Assembly: GCA_002067045.1 (NCBI GenBank)
Contig: MVPZ01000112.1
Coordinates: forward strand, 1 to 22,310
Direction: 5' to 3'
Origin: Methanomassiliicoccales archaeon PtaB.Bin134
GTDB taxonomy: Archaea; Thermoplasmatota; Thermoplasmata; Methanomassiliicoccales; UBA472
Length of the DNA stretch: 22,310 nucleotides
Part shown: positions 3,097-14,910 of the stretch, in pieces
Numbering within the stretch: the first letter of the stretch is position 1
Layout: each line of letters starts with the position of its first letter
The notes under the pieces: model-generated
What the model was told of the DNA's origin: nothing
Seen by the model: the letters and a program-made list of their open reading frames with translations, nothing else
The model's database searches: none
Program-made: the position numbers and the translations under genes

Positions 3097-4590
3097 TCAT
3101 TTGGAGTGGTTCTTCGGCAGTTTGGATTCCATGGCCTGCGCGATGGTCTGCAGGGTCTTCACCCTGGAGAAGTACTTGTCGTTGCTCTCGACTATGGTCC
3201 AGGGGGCGTGGTTGGTGCTGGTGCGGAAGAGCATCTCGTCTATGGCCCGGCCGTAGAAGTCCCACTTGTCCCGGTTCCGCCAGTCGTCCTCGGTGATCTT
3301 CCACTGTTTCTGCGGGTCGGCGTCCCTCTCCTGGAAGCGCCTCAGCTGGGTCTCCTTGTCCACCTCCATCCAGATCTTGACCAGGACCGCGCCGTTGTCC
3401 ACCAGCATCTCCTCGAAGGCGTTGATCTCCTTGTAGGCCCGCTTCCATTCCGCGGTGGAGGCGAATCCCTCGATGCGCTCCACCAGCACCCTGCCGTACC
3501 AGGAGCGGTCGAATATGCGCATGTGCCCGGCGGGGGGCAGCTTGCGGTAGAAGCGCCACAGGTAGTGATGGGCCTTCTCCTCCTCGGTGGGCGAACCCAC
3601 GGGCACCACCTCATACCCCCGGGGGTTCAGGTTGGCGGTGAGGCGCTGAATGGCCCCGCCCTTCCCGGCGGCATCCCAGCCCTCGAATACCACGATGGTC
3701 GGCACCCTCAGCCGGTTCATGTCGCACTGCAGCTCAGCCAGCCGCCTCTGCAGCCTGTCCAGCCGGTCCTGGTATTCGTCCTTGGAAAGCTTCCGTCCCA
3801 GGTCCACCCCGCCCCGGGTGGAGTTGAACATCTGCCCGCTCTTGATCAGGGGGTTGCTGTCCATGAGTATCTGGCTCTTCCTCTCCATCTTGGAGAGGCC
3901 GTACTCCAGCATGCGCACGGCGGTGGTGAGCACCTTGGCCGAGGCGAACTTGGTGTCCTCGGCCTCCACGATGGTCCAGGGGGCGTGCTCCCGGTCCGTG
4001 CCCTCGATCATCTCCTCGATGAGGGGCAGCATCTTGTCGTACTTCTTGAAGAAGTCCAGGTCCATGTTGCTGATGCCGCAGTTGTTGAGGTCGGAGTCCC
4101 GGTACCTCTCCAGCCGCTTCTTGTGCTCCTTCTTGCCGATATGCAGGAAGAACTTCATGATCAGGTAGTCATCCTGCGCCAGCATCTCCTCGTAGTCGGC
4201 GATCTCCCGCCAGACCAGGCGGGCGTCGTCCTCCTTGCGCTCCATGGCCCTGGCCAGGGACCGGAAGTACCAGGAGCGGTCGAACACGGCCACCCGCCCT
4301 CTTGCCGGGATGCGTATGAAGAAGCGCCAAAGGAACGGGCGGTCCCTCTCCTCCTGGTTGGGGGCGGTGATGGGGTGGACCAGGAAGCCTCGCGGGTCCA
4401 GGGGCAGGATGAAGCGGTTCACGATCTCGCTCATCCCCACCATGTCCCAGCCCTCGAACACCACCATGACCGGCATGCCGGCGTCCCTGGCCCTCCTCTG
4501 CAGCTCCCCCAGCCTGTCCTTCAGGTCCGGGAGCACCTTGTCGAACTCCTTCTGGTCCAGGCGCTTTCCCAGGTCCACGTGCTCGAACAT
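3097..4590 (-). CDS. Two-domain PPK2-family polyphosphate kinase / polyphosphate:AMP phosphotransferase
   Basis: 497 residues made of two fused PPK2 domains (about 1-235 and 250-497). PPK2 enzymes move phosphate between polyphosphate and nucleotides; fused two-domain members are often polyphosphate:AMP phosphotransferases giving ADP. The second domain is intact: GWDAAGKG (304-311, Walker A), FDRSWYGR (360-367, Walker B) and a lid region in between. The first keeps GWD and FDRSWYFR (103-110) but reads GWDMVGMSE where the P-loop should be, losing the Gly-Lys, so it is probably non-catalytic. Start: ATG at 4590, 23 nt after a TATA-like element (4613-4622); longer starts (ATG 4674, TTG 4686) would overlap the divergent gene. 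It heads the operon with the helicase and hydrolase. Confidence 0.92.
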   Translation of the reverse strand: MFEHVDLGKRLDQKEFDKVLPDLKDRLGELQRRARDAGMPVMVVFEGWDMVGMSEIVNRFILPLDPRGFLVHPITAPNQEERDRPFLWRFFIRIPARGRVAVFDRSWYFRSLARAMERKEDDARLVWREIADYEEMLAQDDYLIMKFFLHIGKKEHKKRLERYRDSDLNNCGISNMDLDFFKKYDKMLPLIEEMIEGTDREHAPWTIVEAEDTKFASAKVLTTAVRMLEYGLSKMERKSQILMDSNPLIKSGQMFNSTRGGVDLGRKLSKDEYQDRLDRLQRRLAELQCDMNRLRVPTIVVFEGWDAAGKGGAIQRLTANLNPRGYEVVPVGSPTEEEKAHHYLWRFYRKLPPAGHMRIFDRSWYGRVLVERIEGFASTAEWKRAYKEINAFEEMLVDNGAVLVKIWMEVDKETQLRRFQERDADPQKQWKITEDDWRNRDKWDFYGRAIDEMLFRTSTNHAPWTIVESNDKYFSRVKTLQTIAQAMESKLPKNHSK

Positions 4591-4612
4591 CTCTTCAGGG
4601 GGATGGTGGTCC

Positions 4613-4622
4613 GGGATAGATA
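4613..4622. promoter_or_regulatory. Shared A/T-rich element for divergent ppk2 and aSelBL
   Basis: GATAGATAAC is the only A/T-rich block between the two genes. Its centre is about 28 nt from each start codon (4590 on the minus strand, 4646 on the plus strand), the distance of a TATA box for leaderless transcripts. A single element may thus serve both directions. Confidence 0.5.
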
Positions 4623-4645
4623 ACGCTTGGCTCGGCGAAAGGCAT

Positions 4646-5620
4646 ATGTTCCCCCAGGGCTTGACACCGTCCATGGGAAACCTCAACGTGGCGGCGGTGG
4701 GCGCAATTGGCTACGCCAAGGAGCTGGGCAAGAAGGGCACCGTCAGCGACATCACCATCTACGACCTCAAGAAGGGGCACGACACCGTGAGCATACTGGA
4801 GCCCTCCAAGTACCCGGAGCGCATCAACTCCCTGTACTTCTGCGTCAACCTGGCAGAGATGGCCGTGGTGGTGGTGGACGAGATCAACGCCGCGCTGGGT
4901 GAGACGTTGCTCATGCTTGACTGCGCCGGGGTCAGGCGCGGGGTGTTCATACTGCGCAATTACCTCACCCCGGACCGCATCGCCCCCCTGCTGAAGGACA
5001 CCATACTGACCAACTACTCCTACATGCCTGACGACCCCATCCAGCTGCGCGAGTTCCTGCTGGAGGAGGCGGCCAAGCTCAAGCCGCACCTGGAGGGCAA
5101 GGGGGTCATTCCCATAGACCACCACTTCAACGTGAAGGGCGTGGGGACGGTCATCCTGGGGTACGTGGCCAAGGGGATGGTCAACCGCCACGACAACCTG
5201 AAGGTCCTGCCCACGGACCGCACCGCCCTGGTGCGCTCCATTCAGAAGCACGACGACGATTTCGACACCGCCGGCAGGGGCGACCGGGTCGGTCTGGCCC
5301 TGAGGGGCGTGGACGCCGAGGAGCTGGACCGGGGCTACGTGCTCACTAACGACCCGGAGATGAAGGTGGTCTCCGAGCTCACCGCAAAGCTGGACCTGGT
5401 GAAATACTGGCAATCCCCGATAAAGGAGGGGATGGTCATGCACCTGGGGCACTGGATGCAGTTCCTGCCCTGCCGGGTGACCGCCGTCTCCGGCGACACG
5501 AGGTCCCCGCAGGTCACCCTGTCCCTGGAGAAACCGCTGATATATGGCCCGGGCTCCCGGGCGGTGATGCACTACCTGGAGGGGGGCAAGCTCCGCCTGG
5601 TGGGCACCGTGGGCCTCTAG
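4646..5620 (+). CDS. Archaeal SelB-like elongation-factor homologue (aSelBL) with degenerate GTPase domain
   Basis: 324 residues. The middle and end look like EF-Tu/SelB domains 2 (about 152-240, FNVKGVGTVILGYV...) and 3 (about 241-324); there is no SelB C-terminal domain for SECIS binding. The N-terminal G domain is recognisable by its strands but its motifs are gone: no GHVDxGK[ST] P-loop (the region reads GAIGYAKELGKKGT), no DxPGH (EPSKYP instead) and no NKxD (LRNYL). This fits aSelBL, an archaeal family known for broken GTPase motifs and proposed at one time to be a pyrrolysyl-tRNA factor. Role unknown; ribosome or tRNA binding is plausible. Start uncertain: ATG 4646 fits the TATA spacing, ATG 4673 gives the usual-looking N-terminus MGNLNVA. 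Its stop shares CTAG with the opposing gene. Confidence 0.88.
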   Translation: MFPQGLTPSMGNLNVAAVGAIGYAKELGKKGTVSDITIYDLKKGHDTVSILEPSKYPERINSLYFCVNLAEMAVVVVDEINAALGETLLMLDCAGVRRGVFILRNYLTPDRIAPLLKDTILTNYSYMPDDPIQLREFLLEEAAKLKPHLEGKGVIPIDHHFNVKGVGTVILGYVAKGMVNRHDNLKVLPTDRTALVRSIQKHDDDFDTAGRGDRVGLALRGVDAEELDRGYVLTNDPEMKVVSELTAKLDLVKYWQSPIKEGMVMHLGHWMQFLPCRVTAVSGDTRSPQVTLSLEKPLIYGPGSRAVMHYLEGGKLRLVGTVGL

Positions 5621-6243
5621 CCCATTCCGAAGGCCGCCCGGTGCAGGATGTCCGCGGTGGCGCTCAGGGCCCTTCCAGCATCCTTCAGGTGATGGTATAT
5701 CTCCCTCTTCTTCAAGACCATCATGTGGTCCGGGAGCAGGAACACCTCCTGCATCCCCAGCACATAGGTCTCCTCGATGCACTGCTCCTCCTCCCGCATC
5801 TTGGTTATCAGGGCGTCCGTCCGCTCCAATCCCCTGTCCAGGGCCCTGATGCCCTCCACGACCTCGCGGACACCGATGAGCAGATGCTCGGCCATGTCCA
5901 CCATGCAGCGGTCCGGCTCCACCTGGAAGGCCTCCATCTCCAGCAGGGTGGTGCGGGCGAAGTTCATGACCGACTCCAGCTGCCTGGACATGGAATAAAT
6001 GTCCTGGCGGTCGAATGGGGTGGAGAAGGCCTCCCCCAGCTTCCTCTCCATGTCGTGCCGGAACGCGTCAGTGCGGCGGTCCAGCTCCGCCAGCTCGCTC
6101 AGGTGATGGTCCATCTTCCCGTGCAGGGCGGCCAGCAGCAGCTCCACCCCCTTGGCGGTGGCCTCCCCCTGGCGCACCAGCATGGCGTTGAAATCGTACC
6201 TTGGCGGGAACAGCCCGTCCAGCAGACCCTTGCTACCTTCCAT
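5617..6243 (-). CDS. DUF47/PhoU-like accessory protein of the phosphate transporter
   Basis: 208 residues, mostly helical, of the DUF47 (PhoU-related) type that is commonly encoded next to PiT transporters. Visible features are the N-terminal region FPPRYDFNAMLVRQGEA and long amphipathic helices rich in Glu, Asp and Leu, as in PhoU bundles that bind metals. It probably tunes phosphate uptake by the neighbouring Pit. The order TGA-C-ATG (one base between the pit stop and this start) implies translational coupling. Last gene of the msrB-corA-pit operon; its TAG is formed by the same CTAG palindrome that ends aSelBL on the other strand. Confidence 0.85.
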   Translation of the reverse strand: MEGSKGLLDGLFPPRYDFNAMLVRQGEATAKGVELLLAALHGKMDHHLSELAELDRRTDAFRHDMERKLGEAFSTPFDRQDIYSMSRQLESVMNFARTTLLEMEAFQVEPDRCMVDMAEHLLIGVREVVEGIRALDRGLERTDALITKMREEEQCIEETYVLGMQEVFLLPDHMMVLKKREIYHHLKDAGRALSATADILHRAAFGMG

Positions 6244-6244
6244 G

Positions 6245-7270
6245 TCAAACCCCCGTGATCCACTTCAGCCCCAGTGCCGTGCTTCCGGCCAGCAGCGCGG
6301 TGGCCGGTATGGTGAGGAACCAGGACACCACCAGGTCCTTGCCCACCCTCCAGTGCACCAGCCGGCGGTTCTCCGCGGTCCCCACGCCCATCACCCCAGC
6401 GGTCACCACCTGGGTGGAGGACACCGGCGCCCCCAGGGCGGTGGCGAACACCACGGTCAGAGAGGCGTTGGTCTGGGCCACCAGGGCATGCACCGGCCTT
6501 ATCTTGAATATCTTCCTGCCCACCGTGCGCATTATGCGGTAGCCGCCCCCCAGCGTCCCCAGGGCGATGGCCGCCGCGCAGGCGGTCCTCACCCACAGAG
6601 GTACATCGGCCGTCCCTCCCATGGCCATGAGCAGCAGGGCCACCAGGGCCATCTGCTTCTGGGCGTCGTTGGCGCCGTGGGCCAGGGTCTGGACGGAGGT
6701 GGTGATCCATTGCACGCGCCGCATTTGACGATTCACGCCTATGGTGGCCCTGCGCAGGGCCAGCCTGGCTCCCTTCATGAGCAGATACGAGCCGCCGAAG
6801 CCCAGGAACACCGAGGCCATCAGGAAGGCCAGGACCTTCACCACTCCCGCCAATTGACCCTGCAGGAGCTCCTCCGCCCCCCAGTGCACCCCGGCCGCAC
6901 CGTGGAAGGCCATCCCCACGCCCACCAGCCCGCCGATGAGGGCGTGGGTGGAGGAGGACGGTATCCCGTAGTACCAGGTGACCAGGTTCCAGACGTTGGC
7001 CGCGGCCACCGCCGAGAATATGGCCACGCCCAGCTCCTCCACCAGCTCCACGGCCAGCACCCCCTGGAGGGTCAGCACCACCGCGCTCCCTCCGACCAGG
7101 GCCCCGATGAAGTTGGCCAGGGAGGCGGTCAGCAGCGCCCCCTTGACCGAGGCGGCCCCGGAGGACACCATGGTGGCCACGTCCGCTCCGGCGTCGTTGT
7201 AGCCGTTGGTGAAGGCGAAGGCCAGGGAAAGGACGATGCCACCGGATGCCAGCGCCGTCAGCAGGTCCAT
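6245..7270 (-). CDS. pit: Low-affinity inorganic phosphate transporter, PiT family
   Basis: 341 residues, very hydrophobic, about ten membrane segments. Both halves of the PiT inverted repeat carry their signatures: TNGYNDAG (21-28) with GIPSSSTHALIG (102-113), and HGANDAQK (198-205) with GAPVSSTQ (280-287). PiT carriers import phosphate, often as a metal-phosphate complex, using a proton or sodium gradient. The basic loop between the halves (about 166-185) is short, as in prokaryotic members. It starts 7 nt after the corA stop and is followed after one base by the DUF47 gene, so uptake and its accessory protein are made together. Phosphate supply links it to the nearby PPK2 enzyme. Confidence 0.95.
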   Translation of the reverse strand: MDLLTALASGGIVLSLAFAFTNGYNDAGADVATMVSSGAASVKGALLTASLANFIGALVGGSAVVLTLQGVLAVELVEELGVAIFSAVAAANVWNLVTWYYGIPSSSTHALIGGLVGVGMAFHGAAGVHWGAEELLQGQLAGVVKVLAFLMASVFLGFGGSYLLMKGARLALRRATIGVNRQMRRVQWITTSVQTLAHGANDAQKQMALVALLLMAMGGTADVPLWVRTACAAAIALGTLGGGYRIMRTVGRKIFKIRPVHALVAQTNASLTVVFATALGAPVSSTQVVTAGVMGVGTAENRRLVHWRVGKDLVVSWFLTIPATALLAGSTALGLKWITGV

Positions 7271-12312: not shown

Positions 12313-12600
12313 ATGGAGATCGAGGAGGTGGCCAAGGCGCTGTCGTCAGATACCCGCCTAAAGATCCTGAGGCTCCTGGCCGAGGGGGAGGCCTCGGCCG
12401 TGCACGTTTACAAGGTGTACAACGAGAGGTTCAGCGATCGCCGGGAGCGCGCCACCATCTACAGGGAGCTGGAGGTTCTGTTCAAGTGCAACTTCCTGGT
12501 CAAGACATACAAGGAGGAGAGCAAGGAGATAGTCTACCGGCTGGCGGCCCGCTCTATAAACCTGGACCTCATCCAGATGACCGCCTGCGCCGGCCCATGA
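12313..12600 (+). CDS. Small ArsR-like winged-helix transcriptional regulator
   Basis: 95 residues, one winged-helix domain of the ArsR/HTH type: EVAKALSSDTRLKILRLLAEGEAS is the usual first two helices, followed by a recognition-helix region (RRERATIYRELEVLFKCNFL) and a wing (YKEESKEIVYRLA). Cys at 59 and near the end (Cys92) could bind metal or sense thiols, but no clear metal site is seen. Probably a dimeric DNA-binding repressor or activator. Leaderless promoter 28 nt upstream. It lies directly before the three 69-residue genes and is a candidate regulator for them; this is inference from position only. Confidence 0.85.
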   Translation: MEIEEVAKALSSDTRLKILRLLAEGEASAVHVYKVYNERFSDRRERATIYRELEVLFKCNFLVKTYKEESKEIVYRLAARSINLDLIQMTACAGP

Positions 12601-12650
12601 TCCCGCAACTCTTTCCAGATCATCTATCAGGTTACTCCGCAAAGTATCTC

Positions 12651-12680
12651 GTTACATGCTGATGTAACAAGTGTTTATAC
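12651..12680 (+). promoter_or_regulatory. Operator plus TATA box of 69-aa gene copy 1
   Basis: GTTAC (12651-12655), 8 nt, GTAAC (12664-12668), 6 nt, TTATAC (12675-12680). The two half-sites form an inverted repeat lying directly upstream of the BRE/TATA. The same arrangement with the same spacings precedes copies 2 and 3. A further GTTAC lies at 12631-12635, exactly 20 bp upstream of the first half-site. Confidence 0.8.
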
Positions 12681-12707
12681 CCTATTAACTGAATCACAAA
12701 AACATTG

Positions 12708-12727
12708 GTAGCACTACCCTGTGCTGC
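12708..12727 (+). promoter_or_regulatory. Leader hairpin before the SD of copy 1
   Basis: GTAGCAC (12708-12714), loop TACCCT, GTGCTGC (12721-12727): a 7-bp stem with one G-U pair. Three bases later comes GGAGG (12731-12735), then 7 nt to ATG. Confidence 0.7.
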
Positions 12728-12742
12728 TGCGGAGGAAGAAAA

Positions 12743-12952
12743 ATGGTAACCGTGGAACTGACCTTCGGCGTGCCGGACAAGGTCGCTGATGAGGTGAAGA
12801 AGAAGTACAAGAACGAGAAGGACGCGCTGCGCGTGACCAAGGCCAACCCGGCCTTCCCGCCGTACTTCGCCGTCGGTGACCCCAGGGCCAAGCCCGAGGA
12901 GATCAAGGTGGACGGCAAGAAGTACTGGGTGTACCGCTGCTTCCAGGGATGA
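12743..12952 (+). CDS. Unrecognised 69-residue protein, copy 1 of 3
   Basis: I do not recognise this family. 69 residues, basic in the first half (KKKYKNEKDALRVTK), then a proline/glycine-rich middle (ANPAFPPYFAVGDPRAKPEE) and a C-terminal strand-like part ending KKYWVYRCFQG with the only Cys, Cys66. No signal peptide or membrane segment, so probably a small cytosolic protein. It differs from copy 2 at 5 residues and from copy 3 at 7. It has its own promoter, a leader of about 40 nt with a hairpin, and a strong GGAGG with 7 nt spacing, unlike most genes nearby, so high expression is likely. A T5 tract at 12991-12995 probably ends its transcript. Confidence 0.9.
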   Translation: MVTVELTFGVPDKVADEVKKKYKNEKDALRVTKANPAFPPYFAVGDPRAKPEEIKVDGKKYWVYRCFQG

Positions 12953-13123
12953 AGCTACCAGCGTACCTCCTTTTCCAAACCCCTTCTTCATTTTTCCATC
13001 ATTCCGCGCGGAAACGCAGCTCTCTTTCTACTGTGGCTCACCCTGGCCCTCGAGCACGATATTTGCCGTGCCGAACCGTCGGCGTTGCACGGCCCCTCAA
13101 CCGGTAACGCGGCTTTGAATCTG
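12953..13123. other. Spacer between copies 1 and 2
   Basis: No gene is seen. It holds the T-rich end of copy 1 (12991-12995) and a hairpin GCCGTGC (13065-13071) / GCACGGC (13087-13093) with an inner CCGA/TCGG pair that could also form. A GTAAC at 13104-13108 lies 20 bp before the first half-site of the copy 2 operator. Confidence 0.5.
12991..12995 (+). terminator. T-rich terminator after copy 1
   Basis: T5 in a pyrimidine-rich tract about 40 nt beyond the stop codon, the usual archaeal signal. Confidence 0.45.
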
Positions 13124-13153
13124 GTTACGCGGGGGCGTAACAAAGCCTTATAC
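13124..13153 (+). promoter_or_regulatory. Operator plus TATA box of 69-aa gene copy 2
   Basis: GTTAC (13124-13128), 8 nt, GTAAC (13137-13141), 6 nt, TTATAC (13148-13153). Spacings are identical to copy 1, but the 8-nt middle is unrelated (GC-rich here), so the half-sites themselves are what is kept. Confidence 0.8.
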
Positions 13154-13176
13154 CCCCGTTAATCACTGATACTCTA

Positions 13177-13195
13177 TGCGGTGTTAACAACCGCA
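13177..13195 (+). promoter_or_regulatory. Leader hairpin before the SD of copy 2
   Basis: TGCGGT (13177-13182), loop GTTAACA, ACCGCA (13190-13195), a perfect 6-bp stem. GGAGG follows at 13200-13204, 7 nt before ATG. Confidence 0.7.
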
Positions 13196-13211
13196 CAAGG
13201 GAGGAAATAGA

Positions 13212-13421
13212 ATGGTAACCGTGGAACTGACCTTCGGCGTGCCGGACAAGGTCGCTGATGAGGTGAAGAAGAAGTTCAAGGACGAGAAGGACGCACTGCG
13301 CGTGACCAAGGCCAACCCGGCCTTCCCGCCGTATTACTCCGTTGGTGACCCCAGGGCCAAGCCCGAGGAGATATCCGTCGACGGAAAGAAGTACTGGGTC
13401 TACCGCTGCTTCCAGGGCTGA
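13212..13421 (+). CDS. Unrecognised 69-residue protein, copy 2 of 3
   Basis: Same length as copies 1 and 3, with changes at residues 22, 24, 42, 43 and 55 relative to copy 1 (Phe, Asp, Tyr, Ser, Ser). The block from Lys26 to Tyr41 and the C-terminal KKYWVYRCFQG are unchanged. Coding DNA is nearly the same as copy 1 while the spacers on both sides are not alike, which points to selection or gene conversion acting on the coding part. Own promoter, hairpin leader and GGAGG. A T5 (13465-13469) about 45 nt downstream is the likely terminator. Function unknown. Confidence 0.9.
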   Translation: MVTVELTFGVPDKVADEVKKKFKDEKDALRVTKANPAFPPYYSVGDPRAKPEEISVDGKKYWVYRCFQG

Positions 13422-13464
13422 ACGTTCTGGGACCGCTAACCCCTCAAACCACTTCACATTCCCA

Positions 13465-13469
13465 TTTTT
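13465..13469 (+). terminator. T-rich terminator after copy 2
   Basis: T5 in a pyrimidine-rich stretch (CCCATTTTTC) beyond the stop of copy 2. Confidence 0.45.
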
Positions 13470-13555
13470 CATCGCTCCCATGAGGGCGGGGGCTCTGTCA
13501 TACATCCAGCAACATGATACCGATCGGCCGGACGGGATACTGGCAATGGAATCCG

Positions 13556-13585
13556 GTTACCGATCCATGTAACAAACCCTTATAC
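13556..13585 (+). promoter_or_regulatory. Operator plus TATA box of 69-aa gene copy 3
   Basis: GTTAC (13556-13560), 8 nt, GTAAC (13569-13573), 6 nt, TTATAC (13580-13585), the same as copies 1 and 2. The position 20 bp upstream reads GATAC (13536-13540), a one-base variant of the half-site. Confidence 0.8.
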
Positions 13586-13607
13586 CACTGGATGATTTTC
13601 CCGGGGC

Positions 13608-13625
13608 TGGCGGAACAACCCGCCA
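13608..13625 (+). promoter_or_regulatory. Leader hairpin before the SD of copy 3
   Basis: TGGCGG (13608-13613), loop AACAAC, CCGCCA (13620-13625). GGAGG follows at 13629-13633, again 7 nt before ATG. Confidence 0.7.
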
Positions 13626-13640
13626 AAAGGAGGAAAAAAC

Positions 13641-13850
13641 ATGGTTGTTGTGGAACTGACCTTCGGCGTCCCGGATGAGGTCGCTGATGCCGTCAAGAAG
13701 AAGTTCAAGGACGACAAGGACGCACTGCGCGTGACCAAGGCCAACCCGGCCTTCCCGCCGTACTTCGCCGTCGGTGACCCCAGGGCCAAGCCCGAGGAGA
13801 TCACCGTGGACGGGAAGAAGTACTGGGTCTACCGCTGCTTCCAGGGCTGA
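13641..13850 (+). CDS. Unrecognised 69-residue protein, copy 3 of 3
   Basis: The most diverged copy: Val3, Glu13, Ala17, Phe22, Asp24, Asp25 and Thr55 relative to copy 1, so the helix-like segment 12-25 is where variation gathers, with another variable site at 55. The block 26-41, the GDPRAKPEE motif and the tail with Cys66 are fixed in all three. Residues 42-43 (FA) agree with copy 1, not copy 2. Own promoter with the shared operator, hairpin leader, and GGAGG with 7 nt spacing. No clear T-run follows closely; the radical SAM gene begins 109 nt downstream with its own A/T-rich promoter. Function unknown. Confidence 0.9.
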   Translation: MVVVELTFGVPDEVADAVKKKFKDDKDALRVTKANPAFPPYFAVGDPRAKPEEITVDGKKYWVYRCFQG

Positions 13851-13959
13851 ACAGCCCCTAACATCCTTACTATCAAACCCCTTACCGCCCGGTTCCCGGT
13901 CCCCGATACGGGATTATCATTTTACCCTACTCTCTCCTAGGCATCGGAGAGAAGTCCAT

Positions 13960-14910
13960 ATGATCTCCAAATACGTCTTCGGTCCCGTCCCCTCCCGCCG
14001 CTTCGGAAGCTCCCTGGGGGTGAACCCCCTCCCCAGGAAGACCTGCAACTACTCCTGCATCTACTGCCAGTTGGGGCGGACCAGCCGCCTGCAGACCGAG
14101 CGGAAGGTCTTCTTCGACACCGCAGCGGTGGTGGAGGATGTGCGTAGGGCGGTGGAATCGGCCGAGGGGAACATAGACTACATCACCTTCATGGGCGATG
14201 GCGAGCCCACCCTGGCCAAGAACCTGGGGGACATGGCCCTTGGCGTGCGCGAGTTCTGGACGGGGAAGATGGCATTGATCACCAACGGTTCGCTCTTCCA
14301 CCTGGACCAGGTGAGGCAGGACGCCTCGCCCTTCGACGTGGTCTCCCCGACCATCTCCGCCGGGGACGAGCGCACCTTCCGGCGCCTGCACCGGCCCCCG
14401 CGATCCCTGAACGCGGAGATGGTCCTGGACGGGCTGGAGCGTCTGAGGAGGGAGCATCGCGGGGAGGTGTGGGCGGAGATGATGCTGGTGAGCGGGGTCA
14501 ATGATACCCTGCCCTCCCTGCTGAGCATCCGCAAGGCGGTGAGGCGCATCGCACCCGAGAGGCTGTACGTGGCCGTGCCCACCCGTCCTCCCGCGGAGAG
14601 CTGGGTGCTCCCCCCGGACAAGGGCTCCCTGCAGCAGGTCTTCGAGCTGTTCCCGGAAGCGGTGGACATGACCGAACCGGAACAGGGGCCGTTCCTGAGG
14701 AACGAGGAGGAGAGGGAGGCCGAGCTGCTGGAGATAGCCAAGAACCATCCCCTGCGCGAGGACCAGGCCTACGAGATCCTGTCCATGTCCCTGGGTCTGG
14801 AGGGGGCCAGGGATTCCATTCTCCGTCTGGTTGCGGAGGGCCGGCTGAAGGCCACCACCTATTCGGGAAGGACCTACTACTCCGTACCCATCGACGATGA
14901 GAGGGGATAG
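13960..14910 (+). CDS. Radical SAM protein (COG0731-like Fe-S oxidoreductase)
   Basis: 316 residues. The N-terminus FGPVPSRRFGSSLGVNP precedes the radical-SAM cluster motif Cys29-xxx-Cys33-xx-Cys36 (CNYSCIYC). Next come MGDGEPTL (the SAM-binding GGE-like motif), ITNGS, and a C-terminal part with a helical winged-helix-like tail (about 245-316) ending TYSGRTYYSVP. It matches the COG0731-type group related to the wyosine enzyme TYW1 but lacks the flavodoxin part; the substrate is unknown. ATG at 13960 has GGAGAG 8 nt upstream, and an A/T-rich ATTATCATTTTAC (13913-13925) is a likely promoter. The GNAT gene downstream has its own TATA-like box. Confidence 0.88.
   Translation: MISKYVFGPVPSRRFGSSLGVNPLPRKTCNYSCIYCQLGRTSRLQTERKVFFDTAAVVEDVRRAVESAEGNIDYITFMGDGEPTLAKNLGDMALGVREFWTGKMALITNGSLFHLDQVRQDASPFDVVSPTISAGDERTFRRLHRPPRSLNAEMVLDGLERLRREHRGEVWAEMMLVSGVNDTLPSLLSIRKAVRRIAPERLYVAVPTRPPAESWVLPPDKGSLQQVFELFPEAVDMTEPEQGPFLRNEEEREAELLEIAKNHPLREDQAYEILSMSLGLEGARDSILRLVAEGRLKATTYSGRTYYSVPIDDERG

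Follow-up and report, generated by a model that had tools for sequence, protein, structure and literature searches.

The activator Tar (TK0271) of Thermococcus kodakarensis binds a palindrome centred on eight bases, TGGACA-N8-TGTCCA, upstream of the B recognition element (BRE) and the TATA box, and its gene is linked to a target operon (PMC6737238). In Pyrococcus furiosus the regulator CopR recognizes a semi-palindromic motif directly upstream of the BRE, and its targets are up-regulated (PMC7830388). Duplicate genes of methanogens, mtrA-1 and mtrA-2, have been homogenized by gene conversion over long times (PMC4632066), and WP_019177984.1 of Methanomassiliicoccus luminyensis is a small lysine-rich protein from a single-gene operon, listed as a candidate nucleoid-associated protein (NAP) of the Methanomassiliicoccales (PMC7613761). 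Here we describe a locus of the Methanomassiliicoccales archaeon PtaB.Bin134 (GenBank assembly GCA_002067045.1, contig MVPZ01000112.1, positions 1 to 22,310 of the forward strand; this whole stretch of 22,310 nucleotides is called the window), where three tandem genes for a 69-residue protein lie beside a gene for a winged-helix protein. The module is real and well conserved; its parts are each of known kinds, and it is the combination of homogenized coding parts, position-specific promoters, phased operators, a probable dedicated regulator and an orphan protein that is new. We favor, as rather probable, a dosage module in which one small protein comes from three units that are subject to gene conversion and to a dedicated regulator, probably an activator. 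The original prediction, drawn from the letters of the window, had recognized the three copies; the phased palindromes, the covarying hairpin and the adjacent regulator are additions to it.

The three genes are the following.

12743-12952, + strand: small protein gene copy 1, 69 aa; open reading frame (ORF) with homologues found
13212-13421, + strand: small protein gene copy 2, 69 aa; ORF, homologues as for copy 1
13641-13850, + strand: small protein gene copy 3, 69 aa; ORF, homologues as for copy 1

Coordinates, the equal length of 69 codons and the reading frames are all as predicted, and the 5–7 residue differences expected between copies amount to 5 (copies 1 and 2), 7 (1 and 3) and 7 (2 and 3). 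All of them are confined to positions 3, 13, 17, 22, 24, 25, 42, 43, and 55; residues 26–41 and the C-terminal YWVYRCFQG, which had been called fixed, are identical in all three copies. Nucleotide differences between the pairs number 15, 19, and 19 over 207 bases. Pairwise proportions of nonsynonymous (pN) and synonymous (pS) differences are 0.040–0.056 and 0.187–0.228, and the resulting pN/pS of 0.21–0.26 indicates purifying selection on the small protein. A GGAGG-type ribosome site, a TATA-like box and a separate upstream region accompany each copy, in agreement with the view that every gene carries its own promoter, leader and strong GGAGG. The spacers share short matches only, again as predicted for spacers unrelated outside the promoter and leader elements; the best of them, between spacers 2 and 3, has 94% identity over 18 bp and takes in the last palindrome's right half together with the TATA box. 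The idea of separate transcription units under shared control is supported, and the control is apparently shared.

The family is also found in ten genomes, G001–G010, which together with the window form what we call the near branch. In this branch the family occupies one locus, downstream of the 95-aa winged-helix gene, in 1–3 copies per genome, a count that had been proposed as a check. Three copies are present in the window and G002, two in G001, G006, G008, and G010, and one in G005, G007, and G009, while G003 and G004 probably have two, one copy being interrupted by contig ends or unresolved bases. At L003, L004, and L017, loci of near relatives, the metagenome assemblies break or have unresolved bases inside the near-identical copies, and copy numbers in such genomes are uncertain. 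A tree of 19 coding sequences groups the copies by genome, with support of 92/93 for the window copies, 99/98 for the three of G002 and 100/99 for the two of G008. In approximately unbiased (AU) tests on the coding sequences, pairing by position is rejected for the first copies of the window and G002 (p 0.008), for the second (0.002) and, marginally, for the third (0.042). On the other hand, a tree of the 130-base upstream regions is ordered by position: the third promoters of the window and G002 form a group with 100/100, and the position-1 promoters of five genomes with 100/98, and AU tests reject grouping by genome for the window (p 0.0008), G008 (0.0004), and G002 (2e-44). Window promoter 2 is unplaced in this tree and has its highest identity to the second promoter of G002 (61%). 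Inside the window, where 26 sites vary, copies 1 and 2 agree at 10 of these in a row without interruption (0 of 20,000 shuffles), and farther downstream copies 1 and 3 agree at 6 in a row (p 0.0005), neighboring sites being not fully independent in this shuffle test; between copies 2 and 3 no long shared run was found (p 0.88). From the conflict of the two trees and the mosaic tracts it follows that the duplication is older than the split from G002, after which the copies overwrote each other's coding parts. The triplication is old, its coding parts homogenized by gene conversion with purifying selection acting as well. The original prediction had offered strong constraint or gene conversion, and both halves hold, since pN/pS is low and the trees conflict as concerted evolution predicts. 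Copy-specific tuning, which it had also raised, gains some support from promoters 1 and 3, which are conserved by position between genomes. The genes mtrA-1 and mtrA-2 are likewise homogenized duplicates; they are, however, two genes in one operon, whereas the window has three separate units whose promoters escape homogenization.

Upstream of each TATA box lies a series of imperfect GTTAC-N8-GTAAC palindromes with a 20-bp period. We propose the following operator arrays, given with the number of consensus bases matched out of 10 for each site, and list the TATA-like boxes behind them.

12611-12668, + strand: proposed operator array of copy 1, 20-bp period; site A 12611-12628 (6/10), site B 12631-12648 (9), site C 12651-12668 (10)
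13084-13141, + strand: proposed operator array of copy 2; site A 13084-13101 (7/10), site B 13104-13121 (7), site C 13124-13141 (10)
13516-13573, + strand: proposed operator array of copy 3; site A 13516-13533 (6/10), site B 13536-13553 (7), site C 13556-13573 (10)
12674-12681, + strand: TATA-like box of copy 1, beginning 5 bp past palindrome C
13147-13154, + strand: TATA-like box of copy 2
13579-13586, + strand: TATA-like box of copy 3

Allowing at most one mismatch, the window contains four such palindromes, where shuffling predicts 0.09, and each of the four lies before one of these genes. Over 20 near-branch promoters the mean number of matches is 9.7 at site C, 7.25 at site B and 6.1 at site A, compared with about 2.45 over all offsets, and in 20 of 20 site C ends 5 bp before a TATA-like hexamer, the fixed distance that characterizes promoters of the Tar and CopR type. 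Given the usual position of the BRE, site C would abut or slightly overlap it. One promoter (the second of G001) has a further palindrome unit upstream, starting at 3325 of L001. The exact palindrome is found 14 times in 10 whole genomes, 12 times before the small-protein family; the two that lie elsewhere (L041, L045) belong to no phased array. Within the window, L002 and L006, small-protein genes are the only ones preceded by the phased array; it is missing in front of the regulator gene and the radical SAM gene. Tar shares with this layout the N8-centred palindrome upstream of the BRE and TATA box and the linked regulator gene, but its half-site is TGGACA, its targets are several metabolic operons, and the available text mentions no 20-bp phased multi-site array (PMC6737238); the likeness is one of site layout, not of protein relationship. 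CopR differs in that it governs a global copper regulon, whereas the exact palindrome described here is nearly confined to one family. In viral contigs the operator pattern fits seven stretches, which are taken as background. A separate pattern, used to look for relatives of the small protein, also fits seven stretches there, none of which was confirmed; a viral origin was set aside, as was a plasmid origin (no match in plasmids at E<=0.01).

The candidate for the protein that binds these sites is encoded directly upstream of the first array.

12313-12600, + strand: 95-aa winged-helix protein, proposed to serve the three copies as their dedicated regulator; scores above the Pfam FUR cut-off and below that of an NCBIfam ArsR/SmtB subfamily

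Its residues 12–87 match PF01475 (FUR) with E 1.6e-5 and 25.5 bits against a cut-off of 23.1, as is expected of a winged-helix DNA-binding protein, while NCBIfam NF033788 gives 31 bits, under the cut-off of 55 for a full-length member of that metal-sensor family. Among 13 aligned regulators there is no invariant Cys or His that could form a metal-sensor site, and the stretch around the putative recognition helix (R43–L56) is highly conserved. Of 101 relatives of G006, 12 gave a match to the regulator; all 12 carry the small-protein family, and the two are adjacent in 12 of 12. On this linkage we consider the winged-helix protein the likely regulator of the three copies.

Between promoter and gene, each copy has a short hairpin.

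12706-12729, + strand: leader hairpin of copy 1, directly before GGAGG at 12731-12735
13177-13195, + strand: leader hairpin of copy 2, before GGGAGG at 13199-13204
13608-13625, + strand: leader hairpin of copy 3, before AGGAGG at 13628-13633

The best stem in 42 bases has 4–9 pairs, and in all 20 near leaders its end falls 1–6 bases short of the ribosome site, a position taken without a shuffled control. Folding energy lies below the mean of mononucleotide shuffles in all 20 (mean z −1.75; 10 below −1.5). Among 12 distant leaders the signal is less pronounced (mean z −0.76), and the position of the stem is variable (0–21 bases). Fifteen distinct stems retain pairing, with changes on both sides tallied at each of six rungs, so compared the hairpin before the ribosome site covaries; the stems were registered by hand, which leans toward structure, the general DNA alignment having missed the register. 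The hairpin begins 26–32 bases from the TATA box; with the usual archaeal spacing between TATA box and start, this would be right at the start of the transcript or a few bases downstream of it. A hairpin at the 5′ end could shield the message or control how accessible the ribosome site is.

These parts can be joined in one scheme, in which the term dosage is what we infer from copy number and promoter anatomy. One small protein would be made from three separate transcription units, each with palindromes spaced at 20 bp, the last of which ends 5 bp short of the TATA box, with a short transcript beginning at or near the hairpin, and with a strong ribosome site. The 95-aa protein would most likely bind the palindromes as dimers lying side by side, and from its site just upstream of the BRE and TATA box most likely activate transcription. 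Gene conversion would keep the coding parts alike within a genome while selection holds the protein constant, and the promoters would evolve separately and keep their position-specific identities. Several observations weigh against this scheme. The 20 near promoters are related and not independent, and other offsets peak too (5.25 matches at −33, 4.75 at −13, 4.05 at −53), which fits half-sites lining up. Site A is poor in the first promoters of G002 (2/10) and G008 (0/10), G005 and G009 have no exact palindrome, and the control pattern read backwards gives seven chance sites in the 10 genomes. The regulator's own gene has no upstream array in the window, L002 or L006. With the near-branch matrix the array was not recognized in the more distant, regulator-bearing G035 and G041, where the operator has either diverged or is absent, nor in the scanned loci that lack the winged-helix gene. 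Eight of the 20 family-bearing genomes have no regulator match at E<=0.001, although a one-sequence query could miss remote relatives; a toxin-antitoxin pair was rejected on the same count. The control is therefore not universal for the family, and the co-occurrence of regulator and family lies within one lineage. Codon usage of the window copies is like that of their GC-rich neighbors; it gives no sign of unusual expression and is of little use as an indicator of high expression. In the coding tree the grouping of the window copies is not starred at its support of 92/93, and the rejection for the third position is marginal.

The small protein itself constitutes an orphan family as far as these searches reach, and this absence of family or fold matches in Pfam, NCBIfam, Foldseek, and VIA-align also counts against the scheme. 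For the three copies, profile searches with Pfam and NCBIfam returned 0 families at E<=1, as expected from the prediction that no family could be assigned. Pfam against 63 homologues gave five families only, with best E 0.04–0.2, the commonest being DUF1949 (5 of 63, best E 0.16); the family profile against sequences of solved structures reached a best E of 0.15; and the Foldseek and VIA-align lists contain no trustworthy match. In PHROGs the three copies match nothing, and the weak "head closure" match of a distant relative, L038 (0.005 over 23 residues), is disbelieved. A search of 5.8 billion proteins, which detects only proteins that share short exact words and are of similar length, returned 8 proteins with a single sequence and 57 with a 31-row profile; a third round with 63 rows returned the same 57 and nothing further up to E = 10 among 3727 candidates. 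Two of the database proteins, P0002 and P0005, read as frame-shifted over part of their length, as decaying copies or sequencing errors would. Most of the 57 are nameless, and the organisms that are named are Methanomassiliicoccales or Euryarchaeota archaea, one spurious match aside. That match, to a Chloroflexota locus (L007), is due to chance, with about 25–49 residues aligning around a common NPAFPPYF string. The family is present in 20 of the 101 relatives searched as whole genomes, and the 11 positive genomes in a phylum sample of 389 are all within these 20. Open-licence titles and abstracts yielded nothing on the family, which has no name to search by. Ten genomes form a distant branch, at about 47–63% identity to window copy 2, and some of its proteins carry an extra C-terminal MNW(V/C)...H tail. 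Its predicted structure is a compact domain of beta-alpha-beta-beta-beta order, in which the helix is rich in lysine and a P-Y...G-D-P-R loop is conserved.

Could the likeness of the copies be simply recent descent, by separate duplications in each genome and with no gene conversion? The clustering of coding sequences by genome in the window, G002 and G008 is what such duplications would leave, but promoters and leaders cluster by position across genomes, with grouping by genome rejected in the same three cases; the mosaic tracts within the window copies also speak against it, as do the second copies of G001 and G010, which pair across genomes in the coding tree (89/95) and indicate besides that not every genome shows homogenization. 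We regard this explanation as quite improbable. A repressor deserves more weight, though it still seems unlikely: here the winged-helix protein would sit beside the TATA box and block the basal factors, and its release by some signal would set off a burst from all three promoters. Among the NCBIfam matches are ArsR/SmtB metalloregulators and SdpR, neither of which reaches its cut-off, and a palindrome that ends 5 bp from the TATA box lies so near that it could adjoin or overlap the BRE and hinder transcription factor B (TFB). Yet the regulators lack an invariant Cys or His for metal sensing, and the sites lie upstream of the BRE and TATA box, not over the TATA box or the start, which is how archaeal activators are described in the Tar paper (PMC6737238). 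Since the sites bound by Tar and by CopR are palindromes upstream of the BRE, we consider activation more likely than repression, which is still a live rival.

As to what the protein does, nucleic-acid binding as an abundant cell component is our leading guess. Two more specific roles are compatible with the dosage module, and each is doubtful. One is that of a nucleoid-associated (chromatin) protein, abundant since these archaea lack histones and HU. In favor of it are the small size, the separate units, the 9–11 lysines among 69 residues and the pI of 7.8–9.3 in the three copies; the histone fold was found in 0 of 101 relatives and HU in 1; and Methanomassiliicoccales have been proposed to encode novel NAPs, with single-gene operons among the criteria (PMC7613761). 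On the other hand acidic residues make up 10–11 of the 69, the pI calculated for copy 3 is no higher than 7.8, the searches gave no DNA-binding family match and no trustworthy fold match (PF00808, PF01918, and PF00216, for histone, Alba, and HU, are not among the matches of the 63 members at E<=0.5), and Alba is present in 17 of 20 family-bearing genomes against 22 of 81 others, the opposite of replacement. Replacement of Alba was accordingly rejected, the trend being confounded by kinship. The candidate WP_019177984.1, like our protein small, lysine-rich and encoded as a single gene, is said to span the order and the Sphingomonadales/Rhodobacterales (PMC7613761); our family occurs in 20 of 101 relatives, with no bacterial name among its 57 mostly nameless proteins. 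Alba genes, which also encode a small basic protein, form tandem pairs in several near genomes (G002:C55, G003:C109, G004:C21, G005:C71, G006:C34). The other role, to which we give similarly little credence, is an action on RNA or the ribosome, as a translation or stress factor.

Beyond the module, the window and the related loci show varied neighbors.

13960-14910, + strand: radical SAM protein, downstream neighbor; adjacent only, functional link not implied

A relative of the radical SAM protein (67–76% identity) stands beside the family in 7 of 10 near genomes, in G001 as a fragment; no such close relative is found in G003, G008, and G009, and the protein was rejected as a partner. Contexts in the distant branch vary: what we take to be metG-like and ABCE1-like genes flank the family in G013 and G017, a presumed ABCE1-like gene lies downstream in G014, and a presumably PLP-dependent synthase-like gene lies upstream in G016 and at one of the copies of G019. 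In the distant L026, L027, and L030 the family gene comes just before a gene that we take to be ABCE1/RLI-like, and a T-rich gap of about 80–130 bases separates the family gene from the next gene. Elsewhere in the window, a polyphosphate kinase 2 gene (3097-4686, − strand) has two PPK2 stretches in one protein, with a PhoU-like gene near it at 5617-6243 and, at 6245-7270, a gene that reads like a phosphate transporter, presumably. The ORF at the window edge (3-470, + strand) reads to us like a transposase end, and Pfam gave no match for it. Rfam at the gathering threshold and a tRNA scan found no matches in the window.

The locus offers a clean case of homogenized coding parts with unhomogenized promoters, built of a few testable parts, namely regulator, operator unit, hairpin leader and orphan protein. 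Taken furthest, and only tentatively, the small protein may found a new class of archaeal proteins that are abundant, bind nucleic acids and occur only in Methanomassiliicoccales, with one lineage setting its dose by a dedicated winged-helix regulator on 20-bp phased arrays and gene conversion spreading one version over separately tuned promoters. If the protein is indeed abundant and binds nucleic acids, it would help to answer what organizes DNA or RNA in archaea where, among 101 relatives, the histone fold is found in none and HU in one.
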